From: an uncultured Pseudomonadota bacterium | Lineage (GTDB): Bacteria; Pseudomonadota; Gammaproteobacteria; Steroidobacterales; Woeseiaceae | Direction: 5' to 3' | Assembly: GCA_913055625.1 (NCBI GenBank) | Contig: CAJXJW010000002.1 | Coordinates: 186,001 to 250,000, forward strand | Length of the DNA: 64,000 bases | Shown: one piece after another, positions 49,570 to 55,734 of the stretch | Position numbering within the stretch: position 1 is the first letter of the stretch | Layout of the letters: every line of letters starts with the position of its first letter | Translations under genes and position numbers: made by a program | Notes under the pieces: model-generated | Database searches by the model: none | The model's input: the letters and a program-made list of their open reading frames with translations, nothing else | Told to the model about the DNA's origin: nothing

Positions 49570-49649
49570 CCTGCGACGGCACGGTACCGAACTTTGACGT
49601 GCCGCGCGCTTCTAATGCATACGCAGCCGCTGGACGAACCGGGGGGCAT

Positions 49650-51239
49650 ATGACCACCAGCGCTTACTTGCAGAAGGTAAGCCATGCCGCGCGCGCCGCG
49701 GCGCAACGCAAGGACTGGGCGAGCGTCGCGGCCTGTTCCAGCGAAATCCTTCGACACGACGCGGCATCCGCCGAGGGGTGCTTTCTCGCCGGCCTCGCGG
49801 CGAAGGCGGAAGGGCGTGCGGATGCTGCGGCGGTGCAGTTCTCCCGCGCATTCCAGCAGGACGGCGGGCGCTACGATGCCGCCGTCGAACTCGCGAAGCT
49901 GTATGCCTCGGAGCGACGCAACGGCGAAGCGGCGGAATTGCTGCGGCGCGTCGAGAACAAGCTCGGCGGTAGCCCGATGTACCTGCACCTGGCGGCGACC
50001 GTGTACGCGGAGATCGGCTTGCCGCAGCGCGCCTACCCGTTGTTCGTCAAAGCGGACGCGCTGCAGCCCGGCACCGACCTCGTCCTTGCGCATCGCGCAA
50101 CCTGCGCGGTCTTCCTCGGCAAGCTCGACGAGGCGCGCGACATCTACCGGCGCTTGCTGGCGCGGTACCCGGATCACCAACGCTACCACTACCAGTTGGC
50201 GAAACTCGATCGTGCGACGGACGACCGGCACGTACACGAGATGGAGGCCGTACTGGACAGGACGAAGCAGCCGCCGGAGCACAACGTCTTCCTGTACTAC
50301 GCGCTCGGCAAGGAGTGCGAGGATCTCGAGCGCTGGGACGACGCGTTCGGGTGGTTCCGACGCGCGGGCGACGCGGTTGCCGCGGTGGCGGACTACGACA
50401 TCGGGCGCGACCTCGCGCTGCTGGACACCATCACCCGGACCTGCAGCGCGAAATGGCTGGGGACGCCGGCGGATGGGGCGTCCGCCGGGCGGACGCCGAT
50501 CTTCGTTGTCGGTCTGCCGCGTAGCGGCACGACGCTGACCGACCGCATCCTGTCCAGCCATTCGCAGGTGGCGTCGGTCGGCGAGACGCAGTTCGTGCAG
50601 ATGATCCTGCGCCGGGAGTCCGGCATCGTCAGCGACGAGAAGATGACGCCGGCGATGATCGAGGTGATGAGTACCCGCGACCTCGCCTGCCTGCGCGACG
50701 GCTACCTTGCCGCGCTCGACTACCGGCTTGGCAAGCGGCCGTACTTTGTCGACAAGCTGCCGTTCAACGTCCTGTACGCAGGCTTTATCGCGAAGGCCTT
50801 TCCCCACGCACGCATCGTGCTGGTCGATCGCGACCCGATGGACGTGTGCTTCGCCATGTACAAGCAGGTGTTCACCTGGGCGTACAAGTTTTCCTACACG
50901 CTGGACGGTCTCGCGCGCTTTTACCCGGCCTATGCGCGGCTCGTGGACCACTGGCGCAACGTTCTCGGCGAACGCCTCGTCGAAGTGAAGTACGAGACGC
51001 TGGTTCGCGCGCCGGAGGACACGACGCGGCGACTGCTCGACGTGCTGGGTCTCGACTTCGAGCCGGCCTGCCTCGATGCCGAGCAGAACCCACAGGCCAC
51101 GGCGACGGCCAGCTCGGTGCAGGTGCGGGAGAAAATCCACGACCGGTCGGTCGGGCGCTGGCGTCGCTACGCGCGGCCGCTCGAGCCGTTGCGCGCGCAA
51201 CTCGCTGACGCCGGCATCGATGTCGGCGAGCAGCCGTGA
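49650..51239 (+). CDS. TPR-containing sulfotransferase, copy 1
   Basis: A 529-residue cytosolic fusion. The N-terminal ~270 residues form TPR-type helical repeats. The C-terminal sulfotransferase domain has the PAPS 5'-phosphosulfate loop GLPRSGTTLTDRIL (about residues 290-303), a substrate/partner segment KLPFNVLYAGF, and the 3'-phosphate-binding region ARIVLVDRDPMDVCFAMY. It should transfer sulfate from PAPS to an unknown hydroxyl or amine acceptor. ATG 49650 has GGGGGG upstream and starts the first TPR. The stop overlaps the next gene's GTG start by four bases. It follows a strong terminator, so it forms a new unit. Confidence 0.87.
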   Translation: MTTSAYLQKVSHAARAAAQRKDWASVAACSSEILRHDAASAEGCFLAGLAAKAEGRADAAAVQFSRAFQQDGGRYDAAVELAKLYASERRNGEAAELLRRVENKLGGSPMYLHLAATVYAEIGLPQRAYPLFVKADALQPGTDLVLAHRATCAVFLGKLDEARDIYRRLLARYPDHQRYHYQLAKLDRATDDRHVHEMEAVLDRTKQPPEHNVFLYYALGKECEDLERWDDAFGWFRRAGDAVAAVADYDIGRDLALLDTITRTCSAKWLGTPADGASAGRTPIFVVGLPRSGTTLTDRILSSHSQVASVGETQFVQMILRRESGIVSDEKMTPAMIEVMSTRDLACLRDGYLAALDYRLGKRPYFVDKLPFNVLYAGFIAKAFPHARIVLVDRDPMDVCFAMYKQVFTWAYKFSYTLDGLARFYPAYARLVDHWRNVLGERLVEVKYETLVRAPEDTTRRLLDVLGLDFEPACLDAEQNPQATATASSVQVREKIHDRSVGRWRRYARPLEPLRAQLADAGIDVGEQP

Positions 51240-52801
51240 CACGGACGACCGAACAATTGAGCATCACGGCGCGGCAGGCGGCCCGCGCGAGAGACTGGCG
51301 TCGCGTTGGCGCCTGCGCGCGCGAACTGATCCGGCGCCCGGACGCGAGCGCCGAGGGCCACTTCCTGCTCGGCCTGGCCGAAAAGGCAGCGCGCCGGCCG
51401 CGGGCCGCCGTCGACGCGTTCCGCACGGCCTGCACACAGGACGCGGCACGCTACGACGCGGCCGTCGAAGCGGCCGCGCAACTCGTCGCGCTCGGTCGAT
51501 TCGGCGAGGCCGTACATCTCGTTCGCGACTGCGAGTCTCGGCTCGACCGTAGCCCGCGCTACCTTCAGATGGCGGCCACCGTGTACCTGAACGCCGGCCT
51601 GCCCGCAAACGCGTGGCCGCTGTTCCGGCAGGCCGATGCGCTGCAGCCCGGCATCGACGCGTTGCGGGCCGGCCTCGCGGAGTGCAGCGTTTACGTCGGG
51701 CGTATCGACGCCGCGGCGGAGATCTACCGGGAGTTGCTGGCGCGGAACCCGGGACACCAGCGGAACCACTACGCCCTGTCGCGATTGCAGAGAGCCACGG
51801 ATTCGACGCACCTCGACGCCATGCGGGCGATCCTCGAGACGAATGGCCAGCCGGACGAGCGAAACATCTACCTGCTGTATGCCATCGGCAAGGAATGCGA
51901 GGATCTCGGCCGCTGGGACGAGGCGTTCGACAGCTACTCCCGCGCCGGTGCCGCGGCAGCGCGCGTCGCGGGTTACGACGTCGATGACGATGTCCGGCTC
52001 GTCGACGCGATCATCGAGACCTGCGACGCGGACTGGCTCACTGCCGGCATCGCCGAGCCCGGCGATTCGCGGACGCCGGTGTTCGTCACTGGCCTGCCGC
52101 GCTCCGGGACGACACTGGTCGAGCGCGTGCTCGGGCTGCACTCCGGCGTGGAATCTGCGGGCGAGACCTGGTTCCTGCAACAGGCGGTGCGCCGCGTGAG
52201 CGGCATCGAATCGTCGGAACGGATGACGGCGGCGATGATCCCGGCGGCGGCGCGTTCGCAGCCCGGCCGCATCGGCGAGGATTACCTGTCGAACGTGGTG
52301 TACAAGCTCGACGGCAAGCCCGCCTTCATCGAGAAATTTCCGGAAAATTTTCTCTACCTCGGCTTCATCGCACGCGAGTTCCCGAATGCGCGCATCGTTC
52401 ACGTCCATCGCCACCCGATGGACAACGCGTTCGGCCTGTTCAGGCAGTCGTACTTTCGCTACGCCTACCGGCTCGAGGACCTGGCCGCGTTCCTGCCCGC
52501 GTGGGAACGGCTGGCGACGCACTGGCGCAACGTGCTCGGCGATCGCATCGTCGACGTGCGCTACGAGGATTTCGTCACGAGGCCGGACGCGGAGATCCGC
52601 CGGCTGCTCGCGGCGGTCGGCCTGCCGTTCGAGGAGGCGTGCCTGCACGTGGAGAACAACCTCTCCGCCTCGAACACGGCAAGTGCCGTACAGGTGCGCG
52701 AGCCGATGCACACGCGGTCCATCGGTCACTGGCGGCATTTCGCGTCCGGGCTCGCGCCGCTGGAGGCGCACCTGCGCGCCGAGGGTGTCGAACTCGATTG
52801 A
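51236..52801 (+). CDS. TPR-containing sulfotransferase, copy 2
   Basis: A 521-residue paralogue of the preceding gene, overlapping its stop as GTGA, so translational coupling is expected. The same architecture is conserved: TPR helices to about residue 260, PAPS loop GLPRSGTTLVERVL, then EKFPENFLYLGF and ARIVHVHRHPMDNAFGLF (3'-phosphate loop). Differences in the acceptor-facing segments suggest a related but distinct acceptor, or that the two form a heteromeric complex. It ends 9 bases from the convergent apbE gene. Confidence 0.87.
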   Translation: MTRTTEQLSITARQAARARDWRRVGACARELIRRPDASAEGHFLLGLAEKAARRPRAAVDAFRTACTQDAARYDAAVEAAAQLVALGRFGEAVHLVRDCESRLDRSPRYLQMAATVYLNAGLPANAWPLFRQADALQPGIDALRAGLAECSVYVGRIDAAAEIYRELLARNPGHQRNHYALSRLQRATDSTHLDAMRAILETNGQPDERNIYLLYAIGKECEDLGRWDEAFDSYSRAGAAAARVAGYDVDDDVRLVDAIIETCDADWLTAGIAEPGDSRTPVFVTGLPRSGTTLVERVLGLHSGVESAGETWFLQQAVRRVSGIESSERMTAAMIPAAARSQPGRIGEDYLSNVVYKLDGKPAFIEKFPENFLYLGFIAREFPNARIVHVHRHPMDNAFGLFRQSYFRYAYRLEDLAAFLPAWERLATHWRNVLGDRIVDVRYEDFVTRPDAEIRRLLAAVGLPFEEACLHVENNLSASNTASAVQVREPMHTRSIGHWRHFASGLAPLEAHLRAEGVELD

Positions 52802-52810
52802 CCGGCCGGG

Positions 52811-53719
52811 CTAGCGCGTGACCCAGGAGCGAACACCCTGCGCTTCGAGGAACGTCTCGGCGCCGCCGCCCTCGAGCATGGCCAGCGTGCAGACCATGCC
52901 GGCCTGGACGCAGGTGTCTGCCGCAACGGTCACGGCGACCGGTGCGTCGCACACCGGCCACCCGGTGCGGGGATCGAGGATGTGACCGTAGCGCCTCCCG
53001 TCGCGTATCACGTAGCGACGCGCATCGCCGCTGGTCGCCAGTGCGCCGGTCGTGAGGCGCACCAGCCGATCCGGCCGAACGCCCGGGCCGCGCGGCGATT
53101 CGAGACCCACGTGCCAGGCCGGCCGCCGCGCCGGCGGCCCGGTGACGGCGAGGTCGCCGCCGAAGTTGACCAGTGCCGGCTGTGCCGTCCGTTCGCGCAC
53201 GAGTGCGACGGCCCGGTCGACTGCGTATTCCTTGCCGATGCCGCCGAAATCGACCTGCATGCCTGCCGGTAGTGTCAGCGTCGGCGCGGACCAGTGAGCG
53301 CGATGCCAGCCGACGTCGGCCAGTATCGCGGCGACGAGATCGGCCGACGGCACAGTGTCGCCGCCGTCGAACGTCCAGGCCCGGCGCAGCGCGCCGGACG
53401 TGATGTCGAAGCGCCCGTCGCTGCTCGCCCACAGCAAGGCGGCGAAATCCACGAGTCGCGCCGTTTCGTCATCCACGTCGACCGGCGCGCCCGCCGCGGT
53501 GTTGATCCGGTCGACGACGTTGCCGCTCCGGTAGCGGCTGAACTTGTCCTCGATGCGCCACGCCTCTTTCGCGGCGATCGCACCGAGTGCAGCAGCGTCA
53601 TTGCGCGTGCCACCGTCGCACAGCACCTCGCAGGGGCTGCCCATGGCCTGGAACGACGCCCGCCAGCCGCCGTCCGCCGTCGTGGTATCGACACGGCGCT
53701 CGACGCGGCTTTCCTGCAC
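52811..53719 (-). CDS. apbE: FAD:protein FMN transferase (ApbE)
   Basis: A 302-residue flavin transferase that attaches FMN covalently to Thr/Ser of exported proteins. It has the family segments MGSPCEV (about 26), DFGGIGKEYAVDRAV (about 154), LVNFGGDLAVTG (about 183) and RYGHILDPRTGWP (about 245). In the metal-binding motif, Asp268 is present but the usual Thr four positions later is Gln272 (ADTCVQAG), a subfamily difference. No signal peptide is visible from GTG 53719, the first start after the upstream gene; the frame extends further up only across that gene. It is the last gene of a TlpA-DUF4266-DUF3570-ApbE operon, and the DUF3570 partner contains a flavinylation-type motif. Confidence 0.85.
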   Translation of the reverse strand: MQESRVERRVDTTTADGGWRASFQAMGSPCEVLCDGGTRNDAAALGAIAAKEAWRIEDKFSRYRSGNVVDRINTAAGAPVDVDDETARLVDFAALLWASSDGRFDITSGALRRAWTFDGGDTVPSADLVAAILADVGWHRAHWSAPTLTLPAGMQVDFGGIGKEYAVDRAVALVRERTAQPALVNFGGDLAVTGPPARRPAWHVGLESPRGPGVRPDRLVRLTTGALATSGDARRYVIRDGRRYGHILDPRTGWPVCDAPVAVTVAADTCVQAGMVCTLAMLEGGGAETFLEAQGVRSWVTR

Positions 53720-53730
53720 GGCACCGGCCG

Positions 53731-55038
53731 TCAGAAGCGGTAGCTCACTTGTGCGATCACGGCGTAAAGGTCCGGGAAAACGTCGGCCGCCGTCTGCGAG
53801 CCGGTGAGCAGGTTCGCGGGGACATCGCCGCGCTGCTGGTACACCTCGAGTCGAACGCCGACGTCGTTGCCGCCGGCGGTGCGCCACCCGACCTTGATCC
53901 CGGCCGTGATCGCGTCGAAGCGACCGAGCCGGTAGTCGCTGGAGGCGAAGGCGGGCAACGCCGCGGTGTCCGCGAGCGACGCGAGATAGAAATCGGCCTC
54001 GGTCTGCATGTAGTAGCGCACGTGCGGTTCGAGGTACGCCGACTTGCCCATCGGCCAGCGCAGGCGCGTATCGAACGTGTGCGAGTCGATCTCCCAGTCG
54101 TCGGTCATGTAGCGGTACGACACGTCGAGCACCTTGCCGCCGAGATCCTGCTTCCACTGGCCGTACAGGCTGTGCTTGGCGCGCGAATCCGGCCGGCTTT
54201 CGAACCGGAACTCATGCGACGGGCCGTCGATGCCCGGCGTCGGCGTTCGTGGTACTGCCAGGCCCGTCACCGGGTCGACGACGCTGAGAATCTTGTACGG
54301 ATCCGTGAGGTAGCCCGACGCATCGCTGTAGGAATAGTTCAGCTGCACGATGGCGTTGCGCGACACGACCTGGGTAAGACCGACGACGACATCCAGCACG
54401 TTCTTCGACTCGGCGCCGCCGCGATTCGCCAGGTCGCCGACATCGCTCATCAGCGACAGCGCGACCGGCGTTCCGCCGACCGGGTCGATGTCGTCGCGGG
54501 CGATAGCGAGGCCGGCGGACAGCGTCGTGTTGCGCTGGTTGAAGTCGCGGGCGACCTTGGCGTTCAGCCCGAAATGCGTGTAGTCGTATTCGTTCGACGC
54601 GCTGAAGCCCACGCTGATCGTGTTCAGGCGGCCGAGCGGCTGCGTCCAGCCTGCGGTCGCCGCAACGCGCGTGTCCCGGAACGTGTCGTCCAGCGGAATC
54701 TCGTTGGCCGGTACCGTGTAGATATCGTTGCCCGACGGCCGAGTGAAGGTTTGCGCGAACGCCTGGCGAACCGCGCCGCTCGGCGTCGCGCCGGTCAGCG
54801 CATCCACCGTGAGCCCGAGCGTGAGCGAGCGGTCGTCGACGAAGCGTCGCGTCGCGAGCAGGTTCACGCTCGCGTCCTGGACCCGGTCGTTGTCCTCGCC
54901 GTAGTACAGGAGCGCGGTGTCGAAGGTCCAGGTCTGCAATTCTTCGGCCTGGACCGGCTGCGCGGCGTGGCTACCGAGCAGCGCACAGGTTGCGGTGGCC
55001 AGGGTCGCCGAGAGATTGCGGGGTTTGGAGTGGCTCAT
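53731..55038 (-). CDS. DUF3570 outer-membrane beta-barrel protein with flavinylation-like motif
   Basis: A 435-residue exported protein. The leader ends VQAEE, and alternating hydrophobic/polar strands run to a terminal aromatic residue (VSYRF), the pattern of an outer-membrane barrel. It matches the DUF3570 family, which has no assigned function. Near the N-terminus, residues 79-85 read DALTGAT, identical in form to the ApbE target consensus Dxx(S/T)GA(T/S); Thr85 would be the acceptor. A family-typical RQAFAQTFTRPSG segment follows. It lies between the DUF4266 lipoprotein gene (9-base gap) and apbE (11-base gap), so it is clearly co-expressed with the flavin transferase. Confidence 0.82.
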   Translation of the reverse strand: MSHSKPRNLSATLATATCALLGSHAAQPVQAEELQTWTFDTALLYYGEDNDRVQDASVNLLATRRFVDDRSLTLGLTVDALTGATPSGAVRQAFAQTFTRPSGNDIYTVPANEIPLDDTFRDTRVAATAGWTQPLGRLNTISVGFSASNEYDYTHFGLNAKVARDFNQRNTTLSAGLAIARDDIDPVGGTPVALSLMSDVGDLANRGGAESKNVLDVVVGLTQVVSRNAIVQLNYSYSDASGYLTDPYKILSVVDPVTGLAVPRTPTPGIDGPSHEFRFESRPDSRAKHSLYGQWKQDLGGKVLDVSYRYMTDDWEIDSHTFDTRLRWPMGKSAYLEPHVRYYMQTEADFYLASLADTAALPAFASSDYRLGRFDAITAGIKVGWRTAGGNDVGVRLEVYQQRGDVPANLLTGSQTAADVFPDLYAVIAQVSYRF

Positions 55039-55047
55039 CGTACGTCC

Positions 55048-55269
55048 CTAGTTGCAGCCACAGCCGCCGCCGCCGAAACCACGGCCGCCGCTAGAGGCTT
55101 CCTTGCTGAAATAGATGTGGTCGTCCAGCGCCGCCTCGACCGGGTCGGTCGTGAGCTGCATCTCGTCGCGCGCGAGCACGTCGCGGTCCCAGGGCTCGAC
55201 GCCGAGGCCTGCGCAGCCCGCGAGGCCGGCAAGCAGCAGGATGATCAACAGGTTTCGTCCGGGTCGCAC
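55048..55269 (-). CDS. DUF4266 lipoprotein with C-terminal glycine-rich CGC tail
   Basis: A 73-residue lipoprotein. After a hydrophobic signal and lipobox LAGC (Cys19), the mature part starts AGLGVEPWDRDVLARDEMQL, the DUF4266 hallmark. It continues TDPVEAALDDHIYFSKEASSGGR and finishes GFGGGGCGCN. The Gly-rich CGC end is a family feature and looks like a metal- or thiol-reactive tail. It lies between the TlpA-like gene (3-base gap) and the DUF3570 barrel, a combination seen repeatedly in proteobacteria. Function unknown. Confidence 0.85.
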   Translation of the reverse strand: MRPGRNLLIILLLAGLAGCAGLGVEPWDRDVLARDEMQLTTDPVEAALDDHIYFSKEASSGGRGFGGGGCGCN

Positions 55270-55272
55270 GGC

Positions 55273-55734
55273 TTACTCCTCGTCCAGCGCGGCGCGTATC
55301 GCCGCTTCGTAGTCGTCCTGCTGCAGGACCTTGAATCCCAGGTGACTGTCCACGACGCGGCCGTCGCGGCCGATCAGGAAAGAGCTGGGCATGGCGACGA
55401 CCTCGAACGCGCGCGCGAGCGAGTGGTCGGTGTCGTAGTGCACGCCGAACCGTGCCGGAACCTCGGCGAGAAACGCCCGGGCGGCGTCCGGGTCGTTGTC
55501 GACGTTGACGGCGACGATCACCAGGCCGTCGCTGGCATATCTCTCGTGCATCGCGTTCATCCAGGGAAAGGAACGCCGGCAGGGCACGCACCAGGAGGCC
55601 CAGAAGTCCACCAGTACGACCTTGCCGGCGTGGGGGGAGAGAAGCGCGTCGGCCGGGCCGGCAGCAGCCGGCGCCGTTGTGCCGAGCAGCGCGATGAACA
55701 GGGCAGCGGCGATGCCCATCCTTGTCAATGCCAT
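55273..55734 (-). CDS. TlpA-like periplasmic thioredoxin-fold protein
   Basis: A 153-residue exported thioredoxin-fold protein. A signal peptide ends near AAAGPAD, and the redox motif W-C-V-P-C is at residues 48-52, in the context DFWASWCVPCRRSFPWMN. The remaining fold has the typical cis-Pro loop VVAMPSSFLIGRDG and a basic/acidic C-terminus. Such proteins reduce or shuffle specific periplasmic cysteines. It is the first gene of the DUF4266-DUF3570-ApbE operon; its substrate could be the cysteine-tailed DUF4266 lipoprotein. ATG 55734 is chosen since the open frame to 55857 has non-signal sequence and would run into the inverted repeat. Confidence 0.85.
   Translation of the reverse strand: MALTRMGIAAALFIALLGTTAPAAAGPADALLSPHAGKVVLVDFWASWCVPCRRSFPWMNAMHERYASDGLVIVAVNVDNDPDAARAFLAEVPARFGVHYDTDHSLARAFEVVAMPSSFLIGRDGRVVDSHLGFKVLQQDDYEAAIRAALDEE

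Follow-up and report, generated by a model that had tools for sequence, protein, structure and literature searches.

The window analyzed here, a 64,000-nucleotide stretch of the genome of an uncultured gammaproteobacterium of the Woeseiaceae (GenBank assembly GCA_913055625.1, contig CAJXJW010000002.1, positions 186,001 to 250,000), carries on its minus strand a row of four genes coding, in order, for a TlpA-like thioredoxin-fold protein, a small DUF4266 lipoprotein, a DUF3570 outer-membrane barrel and an ApbE flavin transferase. The row belongs, as a one-site member, to a DUF3570/ApbE flavinylation system that has been published before. Its best explanation, to which we assign a probability of roughly three in four, is a system of the published type, in which ApbE would attach flavin mononucleotide (FMN) to DUF3570 at Thr85 in a cytoplasmic step and thiols would feed the flavin with electrons. 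The features, with coordinates in the window, are as follows:

55273..55734, minus strand: TlpA-like thioredoxin-fold protein with a CxxC motif (WASWCVPC) and, by eye, an N-terminal signal-like stretch; Pfam matches Redoxin, AhpC-TSA and Thioredoxin_8 among others.
55048..55269, minus strand: DUF4266 small lipoprotein (PF14086, E=1e-22), with LAGC by eye and the C-terminal tail GGGGCGCN.
53731..55038, minus strand: DUF3570 outer-membrane barrel of 435 amino acids, predicted flavinylation substrate (PF12094 over the whole protein, E=1.3e-132; barrel model).
54784..54804, minus strand: ApbE motif DALTGAT, residues 79-85, with the predicted FMN acceptor Thr85, from pattern match and conservation; followed by the near-repeat PSGAV (residues 86-90).
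52811..53719, minus strand: ApbE flavin transferase without a recognizable signal peptide (PF02424, E=1.7e-63; comparisons; model), with K163-E164 and G274 instead of the usual K-G and D.

A first-pass annotation had placed DALTGAT in the DUF3570 protein, with apbE as the next gene 11 bases away and no other protein with an FMN-binding domain in the operon. All three statements hold: the motif lies at the residues and bases given above; the DUF3570 stop codon (53731-53733) and the likely GTG start of apbE (53719-53717) leave an 11-base gap; and a domain scan returned zero FMN_bind matches among the four products, with three elsewhere in the window genome. Its central proposal, that the neighboring ApbE makes the barrel a covalent flavoprotein, is supported but was known already, since it had been published in 2021: Meheust et al. 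(eLife 2021; PMC8238504) describe the flavinylation of a C. luteolum DUF3570 by its ApbE on co-expression, along with clusters ('DsbD systems') of ApbE, DUF3570, a thioredoxin-like protein and DUF4266. Hence, DUF3570 is not the uncharacterized family for which it had been taken, being already characterized as an ApbE substrate in that work. The window row shares with these clusters DUF3570, ApbE, a thioredoxin-like protein and a DUF4266 with a C-terminal CXC in a single row, as well as the [S/T]GA[S/T] motif.

The distribution of the motif was examined in an alignment of 61 DUF3570 frames, comprising 29 loci from a scan of genome_contigs (which gave gammaproteobacterial and proteobacterial records), 30 stretches from the 28 genomes with a DUF3570 match in a set of 397 from the window's phylum, on which the whole-genome searches were centered, the window itself and L006, a further locus of the window genome. 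DUF3570 is linked to apbE in 47 loci, and 44 of the 46 linked proteins complete at the N-terminus display [DEQ]..[ST]GA[ST]. The fetched locus lacks apbE in 14 cases, of which three (L042, L062 and L082), all with the motif, were left out of the comparison because the contig stops next to DUF3570; in seven of the remaining 11, including L006, the Gly is replaced by Ser or Asn (SSAS, SNAS). A Fisher test yielded p=2.7e-4 for 43/4 versus 4/7, counts that preceded correction by hand to 44/46 and 4/11 (L037, with its frame run together with the upstream gene, had been scored as motif-less, and L064, with its N-terminus missing, had been counted), and this value is indicative only because the lineages are related. 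The motif and apbE go together, with exceptions, which bears out the conservation and co-occurrence that the earlier annotation had put forward as a check. Cultured carriers include Kangiella aquimarina.

Among 29 relatives, D79, L81, T82 and G83 are invariant and, in the near-repeat after Thr85, so is G88, with A89 nearly so. Of the 37 linked proteins with GA there, 35 carry V, L or I as residue 90, and the other two, L053 and L075, carry T. We read PSGAV as a probable second motif in tandem whose acceptor has been lost; as it offers no Ser or Thr at the acceptor position, the window protein has one strict site. A single strict [ST]GA[ST] is the state of most linked proteins; L078, L079 and L083 have two close together, and L081, L086 and L087 have a good motif only further on.

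The outer-membrane location claimed in the first-pass annotation agrees with the C-terminal Phe of the window protein and with an AlphaFold2 model (29 sequences; predicted local distance difference test score, pLDDT, 86.3; predicted template modeling score, pTM, 0.81), which is a barrel of 16 long strands. A crude signal-peptide rule was passed by 57 of 60 DUF3570 frames. These features support DUF3570 as an exported outer-membrane barrel, with Thr85 in a conserved ApbE motif and apbE in the same tight row. The long loops of the model (84-121, 185-209, 242-284, 346-372 and 406-423) are all on one side, with turns of 2-5 residues each on the opposite side. Long loops of outer-membrane barrels are, as a rule, extracellular, and by this rule the long-loop side is probably the extracellular one. 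Strand 3 spans residues 71-83 in the model, with Thr85 just beyond the outer end of the strand, where the first long loop begins. On average, hydrophobic positions (72, 74, 76 and 78) alternate with polar ones (73, 75 and 79), a pattern by which Asp79 would face the lumen; it breaks past residue 80, leaving the direction of Thr85 uncertain. Thus placed in the model, the flavin would lie within the outer mouth of the barrel or close to it. A flavoprotein-like fold was also considered for DUF3570 and rejected: the best 50 of 528 Foldseek matches (E <= 0.001) included no flavoprotein and were outer-membrane channels, receptors and ushers, with query-normalized TM-scores <0.5.

The ApbE of the row was compared with its relatives in a set of 102 distinct frames, 47 within 2 kb of DUF3570 and 55 further ones taken from genomes of the window's phylum, counted after frames of <=240 residues and duplicates had been dropped. 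All 47 linked ApbEs have Lys-Glu in place of Lys-Gly (GGIGKEYAVD versus SAIAKGYAVD in L007) and Gly in place of Asp (QAGM versus EADA), hereinafter KE/G. Five unlinked ApbEs (L176-L180) carry both changes, making up a clade of 52, whereas neither change is found in any of the other 50, in which the first place is always Gly and the second Asp in 48 and Glu in two. In a quick tree, the 52 KE/G ApbEs fall on one side of a single branch with a support of 97. The active-site Ser and His (Ser230 and His246 in the window ApbE) are kept in 52/52 clade members and the metal-ligand Thr in 51/52, with Ser in L079. A search of plasmids of other phyla gave no match to DUF3570 and three partial matches to ApbE, at 31-33% identity.

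When set beside the periplasmic ApbE/Ftp enzymes of the Nqr and Rnf systems (E. coli Ftp and V. cholerae ApbE), the window ApbE has the same fold by sequence and the same Ser, His and metal-ligand Thr, but Gly in place of Asp280/285 and Glu rather than Gly at the residue after the E169/Lys position. In the alignments listed, three solved ApbEs have Asp at the position of the window Gly274. The D280-T284 segment of E. coli Ftp (D-x-x-D-T) aligns with G274-T278 of the window enzyme; the metal 1 ligands of Ftp include D280 and T284, while E169 binds metal 2 (as described in PMC4767422) and aligns one residue before the new Glu164. Likewise, Asp285 of V. cholerae ApbE, listed in a review (PMC12052999) among three conserved active-site residues, is 28 residues past His257, just as Gly274 is 28 past His246. 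These alignments suggest that the new Glu might replace the lost Asp as a relocated carboxylate.

The clade also differs from other ApbEs at its N-terminus, as judged by simple hydrophobicity windows of our own rather than by SignalP. From any possible start to the ApbE core, no hydrophobic N-terminus was found in 45 of the 47 linked ApbEs, that of the window included, nor in any of the five unlinked members of the clade. L050 and L060 make up the two exceptions, with a frame that extends back into DUF3570, and at several loci just 11-28 residues of open frame precede the core. Outside the clade, 44 of 50 ApbEs have a hydrophobic N-terminus and six (L138-L143) lack one; the window genome itself codes for two further ApbEs, L007 and L008, both with hydrophobic N-termini. 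Thus, unlike the periplasmic ApbE/Ftp, the window ApbE is without signal peptide or lipobox, a point absent from the first-pass annotation, whereas the other three products of its row have signal sequences by eye. In lacking a signal peptide it resembles the cytosolic ApbE of Klebsiella, which, in the review's account (PMC12052999), flavinylates a soluble fumarate reductase; that substrate is cytoplasmic, whereas the barrel is destined for export to the outer membrane. For the C. luteolum pair, the cloning strategy was 'similar' to that of signal-truncated constructs, and the flavinylated DUF3570 was mostly in the pellet (PMC8238504), from which modification inside the cell seems possible by analogy and might by extension occur in nature. 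Because the clade has no recognizable signal peptide, we would place ApbE action in the cytoplasm, where the flavin may be attached before export.

Whether the motif and its enzyme mean what we take them to mean can be weighed against three other explanations. DALTGAT could be a chance match, the pattern being short and the TlpA/DUF4266/DUF3570 core occurring without apbE too. However, when the mature DUF3570 was shuffled 20,000 times, D..[ST]GA[ST] arose in just 0.76% of cases, DALTGAT is its sole match among the 315 window reading frames of >=100 amino acids, the motif is kept in nearly all apbE-linked homologues, and the flavinylation of one homologue is on record (PMC8238504); family conservation and the shuffle test led us to reject chance, which we hold to be extremely improbable. 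It is also unlikely, though less remote, that the KE/G enzyme is inactive or changed through loss of the metal Asp, with DUF3570 not flavinylated and its motif kept for another reason. In the ApbEs described in the cited studies, Asp280/285 does bind metal or take part in catalysis, and it is Gly throughout the clade, but the retention of Ser, His and, with one exception, Thr, the Glu beside the position of the metal-2 ligand E169 and the joint retention of motif and apbE speak for an active enzyme. A far more serious contender, which we find quite conceivable though somewhat doubtful, is periplasmic flavinylation as in NqrC and RnfG, with this ApbE exported by an unrecognized route or with one of the two signal-bearing ApbEs of the genome acting in its stead. 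The ApbE examples acting on exported proteins in the review (PMC12052999) are periplasmic, which favors this alternative; on the other side stand the uniformity of the linked enzymes as KE/G and the missing hydrophobic N-terminus in 45 of them, with just 11-28 residues of open frame ahead of the core at several loci, and the tight linkage of apbE would be odd were another ApbE responsible.

Several observations weigh against flavinylation of the published type by this ApbE or set the row apart from the published clusters. Flavin on the window DUF3570 is extrapolated from the published homologue, and the window ApbE is a signal-less KE/G enzyme, in which it may differ from the C. luteolum ApbE. 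The row has no DsbD, and none was detected among the ten window proteins that were domain-scanned, a single match to the DsbD-type PF02683 being found elsewhere in the window genome; in the clusters of Meheust et al., DsbD is present in some only, with 316 counted without it. Their thioredoxin-like protein is PF13899, which is not among the Pfam matches of the TlpA-like protein of the window, although the thioredoxin fold with WCVPC is present. Their clusters have two acceptor sites, the Chlorobium DUF3570 being described with two flavinylation motifs stated as conserved, as against one in the window; since one-site relatives are the majority in our set, we treat the absence of the second site as variation rather than as grounds for exclusion. 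At the place of the motif, the linked proteins L053 and L070 have TGST and TGSS. Conversely, four of the 11 unlinked proteins keep the motif (L039, L091, L093 and L094); the genomes of L093 and L094 have a DUF3570-linked ApbE at another locus, and that of L091 has ordinary ApbEs only. According to the review (PMC12052999), changing the Gly of the motif to Ala lowers flavinylation only to about half, and proteins that have lost the Gly may therefore still carry flavin. Finally, as apbE is missing beside the core genes at some loci, flavin would not be needed in every version of the system.

Taking the evidence together, we advance the following plausible mechanism for a flavinylated DUF3570 system in the window. 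ApbE, with its altered metal site, would act in the cytoplasm on the still unfolded barrel, transferring FMN from flavin adenine dinucleotide (FAD) to the single site Thr85, as extrapolated from the published homologue and from the clade-wide want of a signal peptide. After export, the flavin would come to rest in or near the outer mouth seen in the model. Thiol electrons would most likely move from a DsbD-type protein through TlpA (WCVPC) to the CGC tail of DUF4266, which is flexible and rich in glycine, and thence to the barrel FMN and some further acceptor; the reverse direction is also possible. What the analysis itself shows is the family membership of the proteins, the conservation of the motif and the linkage of the genes, while this order of electron flow is proposed from the gene content and the conserved cysteines.

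DUF4266 and DUF3570 without apbE occur at ten intact loci besides L039, with a TlpA-like gene at nine. Whether or not apbE is present, GCGCN closes the very C-terminus of DUF4266 in 57 of 59 frames (L076 has GCGCY, and the tail of L037 is hidden by the run-together frame), and the TlpA CxxC is conserved in relatives. The core of the system thus seems to be the thiol tail plus the barrel, with the flavin added to it or lost from it. One apbE-less pair is in the window genome itself (L006:6829-8231, contig C8), with YVSSAS in place of the motif and a lipoprotein ending in GCGCN; upstream of this set (L006, 2591-5356) is a protein with the HZS_alpha domain (hydrazine synthase alpha middle domain, PF18582). 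In L142 (198-13708), too, the apbE-less set belongs to a longer cluster with an HZS_alpha-domain protein and one or more TPR proteins, and an ApbE outside the KE/G clade is found ~6 kb away. ApbEs near apbE-less DUF3570 (L142:12653-13711 and L143:13134-14198) have, in the alignment, Glu for the metal-site Asp and Lys for the ligand Thr. A further locus of the window genome (L008:6967-14287) has an ApbE and a TlpA-like gene together with two long proteins resembling, by eye, those of L142. In the window, tandem genes for TPR-sulfotransferases (Sulfotransfer_3) at 49599-51239 and 51236-52801 on the plus strand converge on the apbE row.

The KE/G clade extends beyond DUF3570. A profile of linked ApbEs run over the 397 genomes gave 22 matches at >=245 bits, the next being at 171, with some divergent linked ApbEs scoring below 245 bits. 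Of these 22, 17 come from genomes that also have a PF12094 match and five from genomes that have none. Three of the unlinked clade members adjoin genes for small EF-hand proteins with PQxx[ST]GAS near the N-terminus and no signal peptide by eye, in genomes without a DUF3570 match:

L176:6996-7406, minus strand: small EF-hand protein.
L179:4140-4538, plus strand: small EF-hand protein.
L180:5657-5968, plus strand: small EF-hand protein.

For L177 and L178, whose contigs measure about 4 kb, no such EF-hand neighbor was found. With a profile built from these three EF-hand sequences, four of the 397 genomes were recovered at E<1e-30, namely its three sources and G089, the genome of L178, which codes for EF-hand proteins with PQAVSGAS and PQAVSGAR, both on contigs other than that of L178; the genome that follows, at 3.7e-13, codes for an EF-hand protein that lacks the motif. 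The EF-hand motif has Gln where the ApbE motif has Asp, a residue whose change to Ala has, according to the review (PMC12052999), only a minor effect. These [ST]GAS proteins are possible candidates for a further ApbE substrate.

The main text of PMC8238504 uses neither the term 'barrel' nor 'cytosolic ApbE'. In the sections of the literature covered by our searches, no account was found of a signal-less KE/G ApbE clade, of a flavin at the outer mouth or of EF-hand neighbors (for ApbE with EF-hand proteins, as judged by titles), nor were the position of the DUF3570 flavin in the barrel and the place of its attachment found settled. We offer a combined proposal tentatively, at somewhat short of an even chance for all its parts jointly: a cytoplasmic ApbE clade would flavinylate its substrate before export, the FMN would end up at the outer mouth, the metal carboxylate would have moved from the Asp280 position to the Glu169 loop, and the EF-hand PQxx[ST]GAS proteins would be a second substrate.

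An apparently intracellular ApbE raises the question of how flavin reaches a surface protein. If the enzyme is cytoplasmic, FAD export would be unneeded for this route, and the export machinery would have to cope with a polypeptide that already bears flavin. As a pair, the KE/G substitutions provide a simple sequence mark by which such enzymes and their substrates may be found, one that already points to the EF-hand family.

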